64,000 nucleotides of DNA from Pochonia chlamydosporia 170 (lineage: Eukaryota; Ascomycota; Sordariomycetes; Hypocreales; Clavicipitaceae): contig NC_035793.1 of the NCBI RefSeq assembly GCF_001653235.2, positions 3,844,001-3,908,000 of the forward strand. Direction: 5' to 3'. The notes under the pieces were generated by a model. That model was not told where the DNA came from, ran no database searches, and saw only the letters and a program-made list of their open reading frames with translations. Shown in pieces: positions 52,299 to 63,580 of the stretch; the stretch's first letter is position 1, and each line of letters begins with the position of its first letter. The position numbers were made by a program, and so were the translations under genes.

Positions 52299-53357
52299 TT
52301 ACCGTGACGCCATCTTCCTATAATCATCAGGAAGATGTCTACTCAACTTGCTCTTCTTGGCCGCTTTCCTAATCCGCATCCACCATTCCTCAATCCGCTT
52401 CTTATACCGCGGATCAGAAGGGGGAACATACTCCGAAAACCGCTTAATAAGATTCTAAATCAAGTCAGCACACATTCACCACACGAATCCCATCATCAAT
52501 ACCAACCTCCTTAGCAGCCAGTGTAATAAACCCCAACACAAACGCAACCCACGCCAACGTCCCCTTCGTCCCGAGAAACTGATTCCCCCCTCGAAACTCC
52601 ACCGTCCCCGTACACCTCCCCGTCTTGGGATGCGGAAAGATGTTCTGAAAGTTCCACAACACATACCGATTCCCCTGCATGTACAGATAAATCTCCGTCT
52701 CATTCGGCAGCGCCCGAATCTCACTAGCGACCTGCTTCAAACTCGCCGTCGACTTCCCCCAGAGTAAGGTCTCGCACACGCCCGCCTCGGCGCTCAGGCT
52801 GTTCAGCTTGCAGTACTGGTTCTCGCGGCGTGTGGCCGGCAACATGGAGAAGATGAAGTCCTCGTAAACAATGGCGGCGAAGGCAATCTTCTTTAGGGTG
52901 CTGAGCTTGAATTTGTTCTTGCGGCTTACGGGCGTGACGTGGACGTGGCCGCCGCAGGAGGGATCGCGCTGCGGGTTGAAGTGCACGCGCATGGCTTCCC
53001 AGAAGTCGCTGAGGATACGGGTCAGGTGGAGGGTTGTGTCTAGACGGGGGGATACGACTTCCATGCAGACTGTGAGAATTGTGAGTATGGGTTTTAGTTT
53101 GTATGGGGGTTTGTTGTCGTGGACAAACCGAATGGACGGGGTCGTTTGAGAGATCCGTCGCGAGTTACGAACCATTTTCCGCCGTAGTACTCGGGGTGTT
53201 TGCTGTATTTGGAACAGTCGTCGTGTACGGCGTCGATTCCGCGGTTTTGAAGCTTTTGAGCAAGTTGGCGGTACCAGTCGACGTTTGTGAAACTTTCGCA
53301 GCCGCCGTAGGGCTTTCCTATCGATTCTATCTCGACGCCGAAGTTGTAGTGTCTCAT
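52299..53357 (-). CDS. Amidoligase-family enzyme (PF12224-like), copy 1
   Basis: Three exons, 53129-53357, 52507-53069 and 52299-52454, give 315 residues with matching phases. Intron 2 has a GTTGGT donor and a CTGAC branch site. Glutamine-synthetase-like amidoligases form amide or peptide bonds using ATP. The fold's marks are here: MRHYNFGVEIES at the start with the metal-binding acids, a middle block MEVVSPRL, the histidine motif CGGHVHVTP, and VEFRGG near the end. The C-terminal tail is basic. Substrate is unknown. The gene is divergent from a cyclotransferase-like gene 1.03 kb away, and a second amidoligase-like gene lies 8.6 kb to the right. Confidence 0.85.
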
Positions 53358-54388
53358 GACGGGTTGTTGGATTTGGTGGGAGGGTGGGTTTTCCGATGTA
53401 GCAGTGTTATGAAGTGAGGTTGTACGATATGGACGCAGATGTTGGAATTAAATAAAGAATCATGCACGTTGTTACCTTGCCTAACAGCAGGAGGGAATCA
53501 CCTGATGGCCTCGTATCACGGAGATGTGAACAGGAACAACACTGCTGGCACGATATCATGTGTGTGTTCCTCAGTCGGCGAACAGTGAGATGAGTCCAGC
53601 CTCACAGGCAAGATTTGGGCTTACAGTTCAAACAGTCGACGTTGGCAAGCTTCATACTCTGTCCTCGTGCTGTTGAGCTGGTTCCCGATACCAAGGCTGT
53701 AGTACCCAACATGAATCGGAATCGGATCATCACCAGCGAAACATTCAACAGTGCTGTCGTGGCTCGTATCAAAGAGTATCCAAACGTAACAATTGCCGCT
53801 GCTGAATAAACAATATCAATGTATCAACGCTCATCACGCTGCCCAATGGGTACGGCGACCTCTTATGCGGATAGTTGTTGTAACTTGTAAGTGACACAAC
53901 AACACCATAACTCGGTTGGACAACAATGCCCTTCAGCACAGCAGCCTTATCATGCGAAGCAGAGCCCTCTCTTCTCCCTGACTCATTTTACTCACAAAAT
54001 ATGACAGCCCGGCCACTGCAGAACGTGCGTGGGACTGCTCGATTGGCGGTGTCCAAGGTAACCCAGCAACTCACAGACAGGGAATAGAATATATTGCTGC
54101 CCAACAACCGGCCATCAATGCAACACGCCAGATCCACCCGTATGAATCCCGTCTGTTCAATGAGATGACGCACGAGCAATACCATCTTTAAAAATGGCAC
54201 GCTATTGAACAGATTGAGGCACTTTTTCCTCCTATCCTTTTCCCTTCTGGCCGGTGGATTCCCGCTTGTCTTCCGTTTTCCCCTTGTTCCCATCTGGTCC
54301 CTTCCGACGCCTGACCACTTCCCCTATTCGGAAGAATACATGTACATTTCCATTTGATGTCTTGTTCGCGAATAGCAGACCCCAAATC
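53358..54388. promoter_or_regulatory. Shared divergent region, amidoligase and GGCT-like gene
   Basis: About 1.03 kb between divergent starts of the amidoligase and the cyclotransferase-like gene. A 64-codon frame at 53615-53809 has no motif. The 100 bases before 54389 look like an ordinary leader. Joint control of the two genes is possible but unproven. Confidence 0.4.
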
Positions 54389-57106: not shown

Positions 57107-59182
57107 ATGGAGAAGAGAAGGATAATCGTCTCAATAGACTTTGGCACAACATATTCTGGGATTTCGTGGGCTGAGACAAGCCGAGTAAGCTGATCAGGCA
57201 CTCAAGCTACCAACCAAGTCTGATTGCTCATGCTCATTGTCAATAGCCTGACGTTCAACACGTCGTATCAGTCTGGCCATCAATCGATGGTCCGAAAAAC
57301 AGCCTCAAGGTTCCTACCGAGCTACGAAAGTTAGCAACAGGATGGCAATGGGGGTTCCAAATTCCAGACAATGCGAAAAGATTCCGCTTTTTCAAACTGT
57401 AAGCTTGGGCGACGGACGTTGACTCGAAAGTCTAACCGCAGCATGACCGATTCCGCAATCTAACATCCGCAGGAAACTGGATGAGCCAGATACCCCAAGC
57501 CGAGATGGGGATGGAGAGACGCCGCTACAGCTTGCCAAGATCTACCTTTCATGCTTGCACGATCACTTCATCAACATCTTGGAAATGAAACTATCGCGTG
57601 CGATCGTACAAATGACACCTATGGACTTTGTTGTCACGGTGCCCGCAATATGGTCCAACACCGCAAAACAGGCCACCGAACGAGCCGCTGCCATGGCCGG
57701 ATTTTGTGGCAACAAAAGGATCCATCTCATTTCAGAGCCAGTAGGGAATATACTACATTCTTGAACTGATGCTGATGCCCTGACTGACGAGGCTAGGAAG
57801 CTGCTGCGCTGTACACAATAAAACATTTGGGCTCATCGGTTCTAAAACCAGGAAGGAACTTCGTACTTTGTGATGCCGGAGGCGGCACCGTGGACCTCAT
57901 ATCATATGAAGTCGCTCATTCCGGAAATCTAGCAGTCAAGGAAGTCACAGAAGGCACAGGTGGAAAATGCGGCTCCGCAATGCTAAACAAACGATTCAGG
58001 AGGTTTCTGAAACAAACGCATGGCGAGAAATACTGGACCAACGAGCGCCTGATTTTGGCAATTGCAGAGTTTGAATCGGTGCGTACAAACCATCCATACC
58101 TTGCATGTTTCGGCTGTTCAGTATGCTGAATGGAATGCGCAGTTTAAAAAGGATTTCTCTCCAGATGGAGAGCCTCTGACTATCCGAGTCGACGAGAGCC
58201 TTGGGCTGAAGCGAAATCGATTCACGATATCACAAGCGGACATGACGACGAGAATTTTCGCCCCAATTATGAAAGACATCATCTGCCTCATCAAGGAGCA
58301 GATAGGACTAGTGTCTGCGGATGTCGCTGCGGTCGTGCTCGTTGGAGGCTTTGGCCAGAGTTCCTACCTGAAATCTGAAGTTAAGGCAGCACTGGCTCGG
58401 AATACACCTGTGCTTCAACCTGACAACGGTTGGATAGCAGTGGTGAAAGGAGCAGTTATACATGGGTTAGGTCATTACCATCCCAGTCTAACACAGGTAC
58501 AAATCGTTTCGAGGATAGCGAGGCGTTCGTACGGCACATGCCTTCTCGCCGCGTATGACATGATGCGACACGACCCAAAAGAGGCGTGAGTTTTTTTTTT
58601 TGAGAAAGTGCTCGCTTGTAGAGAGTGTATGCTAACCGCTGTCAGGGTCTGGTCTCCGAAGGAAGAGGAAATGGTTGTTGCCGAAATGTGCTGGTTTATT
58701 AGAAAGGTACGCAGTACTCTTAGTTCGTACATACATTATGTAACTTTGAAGGATTTTGAGCTTTTGTTGACAGTAAAAAGGGGGAATCCTATCCGGAAGG
58801 AATGCCAACCGTCATTGACTATCAGTGCGATATTCCTGTGTCCTCTGGTCCTATTCCACAAACGGAAATTGAGATATTCTGCAACGATGATCCTGTCCCG
58901 CCGGTTCATTGCACCGCCAACACGAAATGCATAGCAACCCTCTCACTGAACCTTGACCGAATCCCAATGTCGACAAAATCTGCTGCAGGAATAACTTGGA
59001 TTGGCAACCATCGGTACTATTGCTTGACTGGTGCCATTGAGGCTAGCTACGGATCTGCAATGATTACCTATAGAGTCAAGCTCGGAGGTGAGTCATCGGA
59101 CTTACGCGGTTGAGGCGTCACAGAACTGAAGCAGTTAGTAGGCGTCACACATGATGCCCTGACAGTACGATATGAGCAGTAA
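57107..59182 (+). CDS. Hsp70-like ATPase (fungal Hsp70/HSPA12-type)
   Basis: Eight exons: 57107-57184, 57247-57398, 57473-57740, 57797-58078, 58143-58585, 58646-58706, 58781-59087 and 59166-59182, giving 535 residues. The actin-like ATPase core is complete: phosphate-1 loop VSIDFGTTYSGISWA, phosphate-2 loop LCDAGGGTVDLISYEV and adenosine motif VVLVGGFGQSSYL. MDFVVTVPAIW and EGTGGKCGSAMLNKRF are typical of the expanded fungal Hsp70-like group related to animal HSPA12. A canonical substrate-binding domain is lacking; a short beta region follows instead. Its client is unknown. Exon 7 uses an AAG acceptor and exon 8 is only 17 bases, ending VRYEQ. Confidence 0.87.
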
Positions 59183-59257
59183 GGAGTGGCAGGCTTGGGG
59201 GCCAGTTTGTCGACATGTCTTGTGGAATGACAAGTGTAGAAAGTGTCGCACTCACCT

Positions 59258-61318
59258 CTACGTGGTTTCGTCCAACTACTCAGCCCATGTGTATCAGCAA
59301 TCAAGATTTGAAAACCAAACTCTGGGAAGAATAACAACATACAAATTTCTTGTAGGCTGCCTGCAAGGTTTTCAGTAAGTTGCGCAAGATGTCATGAGGC
59401 TTCACGTGGTCTCTTCTTACCTGTGTGGCATTGTCCTCCGACTGCGTGACAAAAACAGAAACGATTAACACCAGAGTGACTTAATTCGAGTTAAGGAACA
59501 AGAGAGGTCTCTTACGGCACCGGCTTCTTCTGCCGCCTTATATAGTCTGCGAGTTAGAACGATCATGTCCCCTGAAATTTAAGATAAGGCGAGTTACCTT
59601 TGCGGCTTTCTCTGCTTCCTAGCGATTGGTCCCATTCCTGTTAGTTTCTCGCCCCGAGCTTGTCCCAAGTACATGTATTTTTCTTGGCAGTCTTACCGCC
59701 GCCTGTCGGCATAGTTTCTTATCACCAGGGTTAGCGATGAAACATACGCGTAGTCGAAGACTTACCTCATGCTCGGCTTTGAGAGCCTGGTGTTTCTGCT
59801 TAGCAAATGTATGTGGACGAACGAGTTGTGGTCAGGTACTTACCGAAATCTCGTGCCATTTGGCCTAATTGGTCAGTCGAAGTTAGTAGTGGTCCTGTTC
59901 GGGTAGAGAGCAATAGAAGTAGCACTCGCAGAATCACTAACAGTTGCCATGGCCAAGTAGTTCTGAAGTAGTAGATCCTAAGTTAGTGCAACGTAGATGC
60001 AAATGCCAGGCTGTAGACGTACATCTCTTTTATTTCTCTAAAACTTAAAAAGTAGTTGAGCAAGCTTCCAGATACATCGGTCAACAGAGATGAGCATACG
60101 AGAGGAGAATTCTAGTTACGACTGTTAGTTTGGCAAGAAGCGACCACCTAGGTACTTGGCACGCGGCGTGCGACCACATACCTCGACCGCAGGGTTCTAT
60201 CCAGCAATATTTTATTGACATCGTCAGCGTGGGCACGGGGCCACAGATGCGAATGTCTTTTCGTTGGACTTCCAATTGCTCACCGATTCCCCGTCCTACA
60301 GCCCGTTGTTAACAGGGAACCAGGGCGAAGTGAGTGTACAAAATAGAATAATGCATCAACGAAATGTCCACTCACCTTTGGCCGTAGCCAGCACTTGGCC
60401 GGCGTATGGCCGGGCCGGCCACAATGATGGCACTGCATAGGAGTGTTTAGTCTTTCCGCTCCCACGCTTACACCAAGGTATGATGATTTTACCGTCTGGG
60501 TCACTTTCCTCATCGTTAATTGTCATGTATATGAGCGAACAGTTAGTCGAATCTGTTTTACTTATGCTTGTTGACCCTGTTATCGACTTTGAAACCATGT
60601 GCGGTTAGCAGCACCCAATATGAAGCAACAAGGCCGAGCTGACACATACACGGCTTGGTTTTCGCTACCATGCGAAGCGTTAGAAAGCAAAGCTCTCTTG
60701 GGCATTGGCCAGATAATTGCTTACTTCGAGATTTAATCACATCTTGAAGGAAGCATCAGTCTTTAGGTGCTCCCTCCACGGTTCGCCCCTTGCCAATCAC
60801 TTACCGCTATTCTGAGCTGTTGCTCACCGGCCGTCAGTCCTATGGATTGAACAAAGAGCGTTGGGGTTGAATAGCAAACATACAAGGTCTCGTTGGTGCC
60901 ACTTTTGAAGAAGACAAAACTTGTTAGTACAGACATATCGAAGGGCTTCCACAATGCTAGACTTACTCTTTGTAATCTCGCTAGAAATGGACAACACGTT
61001 AAACATCACGCAGTTAGCACATCTTTCCAATGAACACACGTACATTTGGTCGTTCGGCTGCCAAAACATCGACGTCAGCAACGTAATGCCGGTCCTTCTG
61101 GTTTTGTCTACAGCATGTGCGCTACTTACAATCTTTTGGTAATGTTCACTGAAGTTACTGTAAGCAATGACTTCCTTATTCCGTGCCCGGCTGGTGGTTC
61201 AACATGAGAAGAACACTTACATCTGTGAGTCAAGATAACTACCGTGACATCAAAGGTTAGCAGACTTTTGCAGATACGGAGGCGGGTTCATTGGGACGAT
61301 CTTACAACGTTGCGCGGC
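59258..61318 (-). CDS. Microexon gene: CCHC zinc-knuckle plus coiled-coil protein
   Basis: About 25 exons (5' to 3'): 61306-61318, 61221-61238, 61130-61157, 61044-61057, 60967-60980, 60884-60901, 60805-60816, 60725-60742, 60652-60664, 60562-60576, 60472-60508, 60376-60432, 60284-60295, 60182-60196, 60100-60111, 60023-60037, 59942-59977, 59844-59864, 59766-59798, 59697-59717, 59598-59618, 59516-59536, 59421-59441, 59343-59360, 59258-59275. Introns have GTAAG-type donors, mostly CTAAC/CTGAC branch sites and TAG, CAG or AAG acceptors. The spliced frame is open throughout. An ATG split between exons 5 and 6 gives MAPTRPSQNSDV and a 144-residue protein, but the frame is also open through exons 1-5, so the true start is unsettled. 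Exon 12 encodes the zinc knuckle CHHCGRPGHTPAKC. Exons 18-24 encode an Ala/Glu/Lys helix (AKWHEISQKHQALKAEHEK onward). Function unknown. Exons 7, 10 and 11 are the least certain. Confidence 0.72.
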
Positions 61319-61321
61319 CTG

Positions 61322-61342
61322 AAAAAAAAAAAAAAAAAAAAA
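61322..61342. repeat. A21 homopolymer (minus-strand polypyrimidine tract)
   Basis: A run of about 21 A on the plus strand. On the minus strand it is a T run directly followed by CAG at the first microexon, so it can serve as the polypyrimidine tract of that acceptor. Run length is the least reliable kind of sequence to assemble. Confidence 0.8.
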
Positions 61343-61946
61343 GAGAGAAGAAAAGAGGGGAAACAAGCTGCGACGCCGAATATTAGTCCAAGGCTAGTTG
61401 TTGGCTAACTCTTTCCCAGAGCGTGAATGAACGAGTCTGGAAGGAGCGGATGAAATGGTTCCTTCTGAGTTCTGTCGGCTCTCCTTTACATAAGTGCCAG
61501 CTGGGAAGAAGTCTCCAGCTCTCGACCCTGTAGAAAAGGGGAGCATGATTTGATGGGGGCTATCAATTATTTGGTTTATCAATTATCATCAAGTTTAAGG
61601 AGTGAGTACTACGCTCGGTCGGGTTTTGCCAGTTGTCACGATTTGCTGTTGAATTTCGCCATTGTCACATCAGAATTTGCCAGTGAGCCAAAATGAACCC
61701 CAAAAAGTTCAAGATTTTGAAACTTCTAAATTATGAGTGGTGAGTTCTGCCACTTCCATCTATATGAGATGTTCCTTTAGGACGTGGTCAGCCCTCCTGC
61801 CACAGCCCATACCAAAGATCAGCTCATTGCAGTCCTGGTGTTCCGGCGTTCCATATGAGAACTCACCGTGAACGGACGAAAAAAAAAAAAAGGGACGTAG
61901 GTGCAACCCATATACATTTAATGAGGGGGGAATAATTTGGACACAA
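61343..61946. other. 5' region of the microexon gene, undefined
   Basis: An open minus-strand frame at 61394-61582 (from an internal ATG, about 50 codons) could be a 5' exon. I found no donor in the phase needed to join 61318, so it is not included. The rest, including an A13 run near 61880, shows nothing else. Confidence 0.35.
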
Positions 61947-62825
61947 TCAGTGCAACCAGTTTAAAGCCCTGTGGCACAAATATAACGACGTCTGAATCCA
62001 ACCTTCAGCTTCATGAACGTTGGTGACATGAGGTGGTTGCCGGAACTCAATGGTCCCTTTAGGGCTCTGCAGAGGCAAGAAGTTCCAAGCCACGTACTTT
62101 GGATCAGAAAGTCCCTATTCTTGCATATCTTCCAGCCGTGGCATCATTGCTGAAATCAGCTGTTCCAGCGGAACATCTTCTGCCAACTCGTCAAGAGACG
62201 GCTTTGGCCGAATATCAAAATTTGGTTGCGAAAAGCGCATTTTCCGCCGACTCTCGGGAATATGTTCTGTAATATCAGAGTGTAAGTAGTAAAGAAATCT
62301 GGCAAATCTCCGAACCTGTTCAGTAGAAAACCCAAGCAACGGACTCATGTGGACATGTGTACCGCAACGGTGTCGGGTCTCCGTCACGATATCGAAATAC
62401 TTCTCGACAGCTGTCCAAACCATTTCCATTTCAGAGTTCCAGGTACCTGTACACTTGCTTATCTCGGCCGACAGGTTAGAAATAAGAACTGGAGATATAA
62501 TTTCGATACCATAGCCGAGGCCGCTTTCTGTGATTGAAGGGTCGGTGGTAACCGTCCACTTTGTGTAGTCGACATCGTCCAGGAACTTTTTGCAGGCTGA
62601 GGAATCGTTAACTTCTATTCCTGTTTGTCGCAAATAACTCTCTATGAATCTGACAATGGCATTTCTATTCGGGACGCGCCTGTCTGTACAACCTAGGTCG
62701 TGGGTTTGAAGAACGTTAGCGTCACGATGGTCAAATTCAAACAAGGACTCGAGAAGTTTTATGGTTTCCTCTTTTGGTCTAACGACCATCTCGAACTCAA
62801 CTCCAAACCGAATCTGTTCCGACAT
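61947..62825 (-). CDS. Amidoligase-family enzyme, copy 2, with in-frame TAG
   Basis: Starts MSEQIRFGVEFEMVVRPKEE (an earlier ATG at 62861 is possible). It shares the amidoligase marks with copy 1: GVEFE, GYGIEIISPVL and CGTHVHMSP. The frame meets TAG at 62115-62117 after 236 residues. In the same frame, coding-like sequence resumes at once: DPKYVAWNFLPL, then GTIEFRQPPHV, the family's conserved final block, ending at TGA 61947-61949. So the copy is complete except for the stop. Possibilities are a young pseudogene, a base error, stop readthrough, or a 60-base intron with a poor GTTCCG donor at 62115-62174. Without the last block the active site would lack its conserved arginine. Confidence 0.72.
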
Positions 62826-63580
62826 GTTTGATTGTCGTTCTTGGGCGTGATGTCTGTTCATTTCTTACGGCAAGGTAGTTGTGGTAAAATTCGACTGATT
62901 ACAAGAGCAGCATCTTGGATAGGCAGCATCAAAATTGGTCAGGTCGTCCTGGTGCATTAGGCGACAGGACTAGCTTACTTCTCTTTTAAGTTCTAAGTTG
63001 GAAGGTGCAGTCAAGGTTTGGGTTAAAACTTCGGAAGGTGCCTACTACTGGAGAGATGTTCTTTCGCCATTTCAGAGGCGACGGTCAAAGAGCCTTGATT
63101 CCTTCTGGTTCTCCAAGCGTAAACTTTAGCTTAGAAAGTGCCCAGATCCATAGTGCACAACGTCCACAAGGTTCATCAAACGCATTCATCAGACCTCTTC
63201 GACGAGAACAAAACTGTCAATTGGGTAGCCGGCGGCCTGAGTTTTGATGATGCTAGGTTCAATTCCAAACAGGTTCAAGTATCTTTGCCGAAACCTATTC
63301 CTGTATTCTTAATGCGTGAATGGAGCCTGTGGGCGAATGGTTATGTCACTATGCTCACTGTCGGCCTGGCCATGCGTTTTTGGAGTTAGCCTCTGCGAAA
63401 GGACGTATTTAGATCAAACTTTCGTACCCAATAGAACTCAGCTGCCTGGACCCTGAAGGGATATAAATCGGCTATACTGCCTGACTCTGGATTAGAATCA
63501 TCCACCACCTCCACTGTCTTGGCAGTTCACCCCCTAACTGGAACTGTACGAAACCAGTACATTTACGCAGGGTCGGCAGC
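62826..63580. other. Intergenic region, possible 5' exons of the next gene
   Basis: About 750 bases. The left part is the promoter of amidoligase copy 2. A plus-strand frame at 63138-63389 reads WVAGGLSFDDARF and could be an exon of the gene that follows, but no splice pair was found to confirm it. Confidence 0.35.

Follow-up and report, generated by a model that had tools for sequence, protein, structure and literature searches.

The minus strand of a 64,000-nucleotide (nt) stretch of Pochonia chlamydosporia 170 (NC_035793.1, positions 3,844,001 to 3,908,000; hereafter the window) carries a predicted gene built almost wholly of microexons. Between 61291 and 59258, 25 exons of 12-57 nt alternate with 24 introns of 39-87 nt, as determined by threading and splice-chain scoring. 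Hand threading leads from an ATG through the 25 exons to an in-frame TAG, and the resulting model (59258..61291, based on threading, chains and coding tests) comprises a 498-nt coding sequence for 165 amino acids, with ends that are not certain. Exons make up 24.5% of the 2034-base span, in agreement with the initial annotation, which had assigned about three quarters of the transcript to introns. Genes of filamentous ascomycetes usually have few, long exons.

The locus stands out by its splice signals. Positions 59001-61000 of the minus strand form the motif-density peak, with 12 GTRWGT and 15 CTRAC motifs per 2 kb, compared to 0-5 and 0-9, respectively, in 2-kb windows outside the locus on either strand. 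Donor, branch and acceptor matrices were trained on 86 high-scoring introns (score >14) that join long open frames and were drawn from the window and twenty 10-kb stretches of the same genome, and introns were then chained by dynamic programming with or without an imposed reading frame. The frame-free chain at the locus comprises 24 introns and scores 265.8, which was reached by none of 200 dinucleotide shuffles of the locus (mean 81.6, standard deviation (sd) 21.4, maximum 139.2) and by none of 434 windows of 2081 nt elsewhere in the genome (maximum 113.3). Imposing a reading frame gives 260.4, compared to 128.9 for the best shuffle. The proposal of about 25 microexons on the minus strand is thus borne out. 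Splice-like motifs brought together by chance and joined up by eye would fit the flexibility of the threading, in which several acceptors can be selected in more than one way, and the fact that the 200 shuffled sequences also give chains, of 14-16 introns on average; given that neither shuffles nor genome windows reach the score of the locus, we consider such a coincidence hardly credible. The plus strand of the locus gave the second-ranking chain (150.8 in the run that forbids stops), which we take for mimicry by the minus-strand signals, because CTAAC, read in reverse complement, looks like a donor and GTAAGT like a branch site.

Most individual introns of the model are strong: 21 of the 24 score 13.0-23.0 with the trained matrices, the median length is 63 nt, and 23 donors start with GTA or GTG. 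A YTRAY branch motif is present in 19 of the 24 introns and the strict CTRAC form in only 15, so that the earlier statement that a branch site is nearly always present is a little strong.

The refined exons, all on the minus strand, are the following. Exon 1 (61278..61291, 14 nt), with the proposed ATG, comes from hand threading and precedes a weak intron. Exons 2 (61221..61238, 18 nt), 3 (61130..61148, 19 nt), 4 (61044..61057, 14 nt), 5 (60967..60980, 14 nt) and 6 (60884..60901, 18 nt) come from the splice chains; another acceptor for exon 3, used in hand threading, gives 28 nt. Exon 7 (60805..60816, 12 nt) follows the stop-forbidding chain and has 7 nt in the frame-free chain. Exons 8 (60725..60742, 18 nt) and 9 (60650..60664, 15 nt) again come from the splice chains. 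Exon 10 (60562..60586, 25 nt) is taken from the codon-scored chain and is uncertain, as the frame-free chains differ and acceptor 60577 would give 15 nt. Exon 11 (60472..60508, 37 nt) has an uncertain acceptor, with an alternative of 32 nt from 60503; the donor of intron 11, set at 60471, is found in the chains. Exon 12 (60376..60432, 57 nt) encodes the zinc knuckle CHHCGRPGHTPAKC and was identified by the splice chains and by its motif. The splice chains also give exons 13 (60284..60295, 12 nt), 14 (60182..60196, 15 nt) and 15 (60100..60111, 12 nt). Exon 16 (60023..60037, 15 nt) follows the frame-free chain, with 13 nt in the stop-forbidding chain. Seven exons of 21 nt then succeed one another: exons 17 (59942..59962) and 18 (59844..59864) from the splice chains, exons 19 (59766..59786; 30, 33 or 11 nt with other acceptors) and 20 (59697..59717; 6 nt with another acceptor) from the stop-forbidding chain, exon 21 (59598..59618) from the splice chains, exon 22 (59516..59536; 14 or 31 nt with other acceptors) from hand threading and exon 23 (59421..59441) from the splice chains. 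Exon 24 (59343..59360, 18 nt) comes from the splice chains, and exon 25 (59258..59275, 18 nt), which ends in the stop TAG, from hand threading; here the chain favours 59279 as acceptor and has another donor at 59255. The acceptors of introns 2, 16 and 18 were set at 61149, 59963 and 59787.

Several features point to a coding function. In the model, 18 of the 23 internal exons are divisible by three in length, and so are 16 of 23 exons when no frame is imposed (binomial P 4e-4). The model frame, which was itself used in choosing acceptors, is open across 165 codons, and in none of 2000 mononucleotide shuffles of the coding sequence did it stay open. The in-frame codon log-odds, calculated from long open frames totalling 24,101 codons, are +23.5 compared to a shuffle mean of -8.8 (sd 6.8), a value reached by 0/2000 mononucleotide shuffles. 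The T content is 16.9% in exons and 28.6% in introns. The knuckle CHHCGRPGHTPAKC has the zf-CCHC spacing C-x2-C-x4-H-x4-C, which occurs twice in 527,916 six-frame codons; the stricter pattern C-x2-C-G-x2-G-H-x4-C occurs there once, in exon 12. The earlier expectation of a spliced frame that stays open to a stop and yields a zinc-knuckle and helix protein therefore stands, with its 165 open codons, its codon bias and its unique knuckle. These observations also bear on the idea of a spliced non-coding transcript, either an intron-rich long non-coding RNA or an RNA host gene, whose open frame would be a by-product. Such a transcript would be consistent with the empty homologue searches described below and with a frame that depends in part on acceptor choice. 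It would not explain a codon bias and an open frame beyond 2000 shuffles, a multiples-of-three bias that arises without an imposed frame, or the presence of a zinc knuckle, and no Rfam match was found up to E 0.5 in 58000-63000. We therefore regard it as improbable.

The predicted product has about 165 residues and is probably composed of a basic linker, a CCHC zinc knuckle and an Ala/Glu/Lys-rich, helical tail. No hydrophobic stretch is seen by eye at the N-terminus of the model, whose true start is uncertain. Among solved structures, the best match is a Copia virus-like particle (VLP) protein (8vvw, E=1.3e-4); the alignment spans the basic linker and the knuckle and falls partly in the uncertain stretch 60586-60472. 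A protein search of the own genome gave weak other matches (E 0.07 and 4.15), the first of which is an open reading frame (ORF) judged gag-like by eye on C22 (L023:1075-3275), with 30% identity over 74 residues and a knuckle-like motif that lacks the histidine. An integrase ORF (rve, Integrase_H2C2) follows it. One possible reading is thus that the locus is a retrotransposon gag remnant instead of a host gene, as the match to the Copia VLP protein and the similarity to a gag-like ORF next to an integrase ORF would suggest. Retroelement genes transit spliced RNA, so their introns are expected to disappear, which argues against a remnant with 24 introns; in addition, a DNA search of the genome found a single copy of the microexon gene, and the other protein matches are weak. 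Pfam detected no gag family in the model protein at E up to 1 and no gag in the gag-like ORF on C22, and among the model and nine nearby ORFs it found amidoligase, GGACT and sub-threshold Hsp70 matches, with no retroelement enzyme above cut-off in a search that was not aimed at such enzymes. We consider a gag remnant unlikely. A domesticated gag is compatible with a real host gene, and a nucleocapsid-like, possibly gag-derived origin is a weak lead rather than a finding.

Homologue searches of a protein collection returned none: one went up to E 10 among 484 candidates, and the other yielded no candidate at all. As a control, the neighbouring amidoligase matched itself and one relative in the same collection, which suggests that it holds few fungal proteins, and the empty searches therefore say little.

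The ORFs around the gene that were searched against Pfam include 57447-58589 on the plus strand and 62115-62864 and 52465-53406 on the minus strand. Two neighbouring ORFs with the sub-threshold Hsp70 matches run toward the 3′ end of the microexon gene, and two Amidoligase_2 ORFs lie in the neighbourhood, one of them directly upstream.

A number of observations weigh against the gene model and its coding interpretation. Two introns are weak, namely intron 1 (5.9) and intron 10 (3.7-4.6); at the 5′ end, an intron at 61305-61239 scores 19.7 in place of intron 1. The chains continue beyond both ends of the model, mostly with weaker introns, so the gene ends are uncertain. Acceptors are ambiguous at exons 3, 7, 10, 11, 16, 19, 20, 22 and 25, and a second path through 60586-60472 encodes a different peptide piece while keeping the knuckle frame. 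A codon-scored chain run without the knuckle constraint takes another frame through the knuckle exon (293.1 vs 292.8), and the knuckle stays below the Pfam zf-CCHC gathering score of 20.8 bits (12.6 and 11.3 bits in two model versions). The seven 21-nt exons depend in part on acceptors chosen by the coding frame: in the frame-free chain, exons 17-23 have 21, 21, 11, 6, 21, 31 and 21 nt, and a chain that merely forbids stops gives five 21-nt exons in a row. Nor are the seven exons more alike than codon-order shuffles. The two weak introns and the ambiguous centre could be accounted for by a formerly functional microexon gene that is now decaying. Since 21 of the 24 introns still score at least 13.0 and the model frame contains no stop over 165 codons, we regard such a relic as unlikely.

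Together, the splice signals, codon use, knuckle and multiples-of-three bias support, as the best reading, the protein-coding gene of about 25 microexons put forward in the initial annotation. Judged from genomic sequence, we consider it very probable that the locus holds a genuine protein-coding gene, which encodes a zinc-knuckle and helix protein and would be spliced by intron definition. Introns of fungi are short, and the usual view is that their splice sites are paired across the intron. The spliceosome would pair the donor and acceptor of the same 39-87 nt intron, which would leave exon length unconstrained and thus allow exons of 12-57 nt to be joined. The zinc knuckle of the product may bind single-stranded nucleic acid, and its tail would be encoded by the seven consecutive 21-nt exons, with seven residues each. 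After the knuckle, all exons of the model are multiples of three, so skipping any one internal exon there would keep the frame and might generate isoforms.

Further predicted microexon genes were found elsewhere in the genome. Pattern totals show no general excess: CTAAC-microexon-GTAAGT occurs at least 239 times genome-wide compared to at least 707 for the reversed pattern, CTAAC triples occur 63 times compared to 168 in the control, many of them being telomere repeats, and triple GTANGT donors at 68-98-nt spacing occur 76 times compared to 352 in the reversed control. Four of these 76 overlap at the zinc-knuckle locus, and others cluster elsewhere. The sole pattern that exceeds its control is triple GTAAGT at 56-86 nt (26 vs 3). 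The microexon class therefore rests on clusters. As background for these, 275 windows of 3 kb gave a maximum chain score of 141.5, and none of them had more than two exons of 3 nt or three exons of equal length in succession.

One cluster, on the minus strand of C5 at 3.05 Mb (L025:2561-1349), contains a 71-nt unit of exon plus intron repeated in tandem (4.2 copies, 82%). When its acceptors are placed manually, ten exons in succession measure 21 or 24 nt, with introns of 50-72 nt between them; the frame-free chain gives exons of 16, 19, 21, 28, 21, 21, 21, 21, 7 and 13 nt. As its chain score of 142.3 is barely above the background maximum, the case rests on the 71-nt array and the 21-nt exons. 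In one frame, judged by eye, the exons are heptads that continue into a coiled-coil-like last exon; the frame from the proposed first exon hits a stop 7 nt into the last exon, and the reading frame and end are tentative.

In four other genes, which resemble secreted peptides, the later part apparently consists of 3-nt exons, one codon each. The first (L027), at the end of C1 (C1:1267-2101, plus strand), has nine consecutive 3-nt exons between tandemly repeated introns of 71 nt, as seen in its chain and array, and begins with a signal-peptide-like sequence that ends in KR; over its nine units the introns differ by 6.2% per site and the exon triplets by 63%. In the second (L030/L028, C5:3553992-3556436, 3.55 Mb, plus strand), a signal-peptide-like exon is followed by about thirty 3-nt exons in the chain; in its 3-kb window, 30 of 38 chain exons have 3 nt, with a longest run of 14, and the introns are diverged (42-89 nt in the chains). 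Chains at the third (L048/L031, C7:2611372-2613368, 2.61 Mb, plus strand), whose signal-peptide-like start also ends in KR, and at the fourth (L043:257-2508, C2:6077557-6079808, 6.08 Mb, plus strand), with such a start as well, contain 25 of 38 and 30 of 36 exons of 3 nt, respectively. All signal-peptide-like starts were judged by eye from the sequence. The triplet order, read by eye, gives cysteine patterns that we take to be knottin-like for L028 and granulin-like for L031. High scores on the opposite strands of L028 (188.7) and L043 (157.0) are likewise put down to mimicry, as at the zinc-knuckle locus.

The introns of L028 are related to the L027 intron, with 16 of 27 scoring above the 95% point of shuffles against it, and those of L031 (8/29), L043 (4/32) and the zinc-knuckle gene (2/24) are little or not related. 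A shared intron element was rejected for the zinc-knuckle gene. The candidate L026 (C15) was dropped, with a chain score of 134.7 (142.5 with other settings) against the background maximum of 141.5; L032 (C6), with chains of 60.9 and 82.9, has no array.

The four one-codon-exon arrays are followed downstream by a covarying, RNA-like element of about 50 nt, which they have in common with ordinary secreted-peptide-like genes. Its core, with at most 3 mismatches, occurs at 14 places compared to 1 in the control, namely three of the arrays, ten other loci (L033-L042) and a place on C6 with 3 mismatches that was set aside. A second core, with at most 2 mismatches, occurs at 19 places compared to 3 in the control and added L043 and three loci (L044-L046); two other places with 2 mismatches were left out. 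A signal-peptide-like ORF has its start codon 249-657 nt upstream of the element at all ten loci L033-L042, and such a start precedes it at 2/3 of L044-L046, according to visual inspection of the output of a hydrophobicity filter, which listed other ORFs too. Microexon arrays are absent from L033-L042 and L044-L047. An alignment of 13 copies (L027:2140-2205 and 12 relatives) yields a three-helix structure in which 98.1% of cells pair, with the structure drawn on the same alignment, compared to at most 53.2% in slid controls. Its covariation score and its number of cells changed on both sides were reached by 0/500 shuffles; three pairs changed on both sides were reached by 84/500. The both-side changes all lie in the outer helix, and the inner helices hardly vary. 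In five loci compared with Rfam, the element had no match with E up to 0.1. The element core was not found in the window of the zinc-knuckle gene, which therefore joins the class by architecture only.

The zinc-knuckle gene is one of several predicted microexon genes of this genome that can be grouped as a class; at the extreme of the class, each exon holds a single codon. Exon-plus-intron units may duplicate in tandem, as at L025 and L027, and then diverge until nothing but exon length and the splice signals is kept, as at L028 and possibly in the zinc-knuckle gene. The run of 21-nt exons was plausibly fixed by an old duplication of this type, because a second gene of the genome shows such tandem units. 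Comparison of the 21-nt exons revealed no recent tandem duplication at the zinc-knuckle gene itself, and its introns are not repeats of one another. Introner-like elements, by which introns multiply inside fungal genes, resemble the near-identical introns of L027 and those of L028, many of which are related to them; the introns of the zinc-knuckle gene differ from such elements in being unrelated in sequence to one another or to the L027 and L028 introns.

Among known systems, schistosome micro-exon genes (MEGs) are described as having mainly short (<=36 bp) symmetric exons, skippable without loss of frame, and proteins with signal peptides that are predicted to be secreted or at the membrane (PMC8293314). 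The zinc-knuckle gene can be likened to them by architecture: 23 of its 25 model exons have at most 36 nt, and its exons are mostly symmetric (18/23 in the model, 16/23 frame-free). It is, however, fungal, and its model starts without an evident signal peptide. The four one-codon genes come nearer to MEGs by their signal-peptide-like starts, with far smaller exons. Aphid bicycle genes are reported to average about 17 exons, many of them exceptionally small, with nearly all internal exons in one phase, and megacycle to have more than 100 microexons; bicycle exons are in phase 2, and their products are putative gall effectors (PMC9168663). In the zinc-knuckle gene, by contrast, the exons after the knuckle are in phase 0 and as short as 12 nt, with introns of 39-87 nt. 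Very short fungal exons are also described in Trichoderma virens Xlr2, with one microexon (PMC11121469), and in Phanerochaete P450 genes, with microexons of 2-10 codons among exons up to 1048 bp (PMC1184071), yet these genes are not built almost wholly of microexons. According to a statement in PMC11121469 (2024), functional microexons had not previously been described in filamentous fungi. The view that no ascomycete gene of this kind has been described agrees with our search of the open-access literature, with subscription journals and bioRxiv outside its scope, in which no title or beginning of an abstract concerned a fungal gene built of microexons or one-codon exons.

It is tempting to propose that a general process in this genome breaks up coding genes through intron multiplication at codon-precise spacing, with an end point, reached at four loci, in which each residue of a secreted peptide has its own 3-nt exon, and with the zinc-knuckle gene and the 21-nt-exon gene as coarser products; we hold the case for and against this proposal to be evenly balanced. 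If it is true, one-codon exons would allow a peptide to alter, gain, lose or skip single residues exon by exon. The one-codon genes would also let intron gain and exon origin be watched directly, as in the 6.2% and 63% divergence of introns and triplets at L027. A gene composed almost entirely of microexons would offer a natural test of the smallest exon that an intron-defining spliceosome can join. Such genes are probably missed by ordinary gene finders, and a class of fungal proteins, secreted peptides included, may thus be absent from databases.
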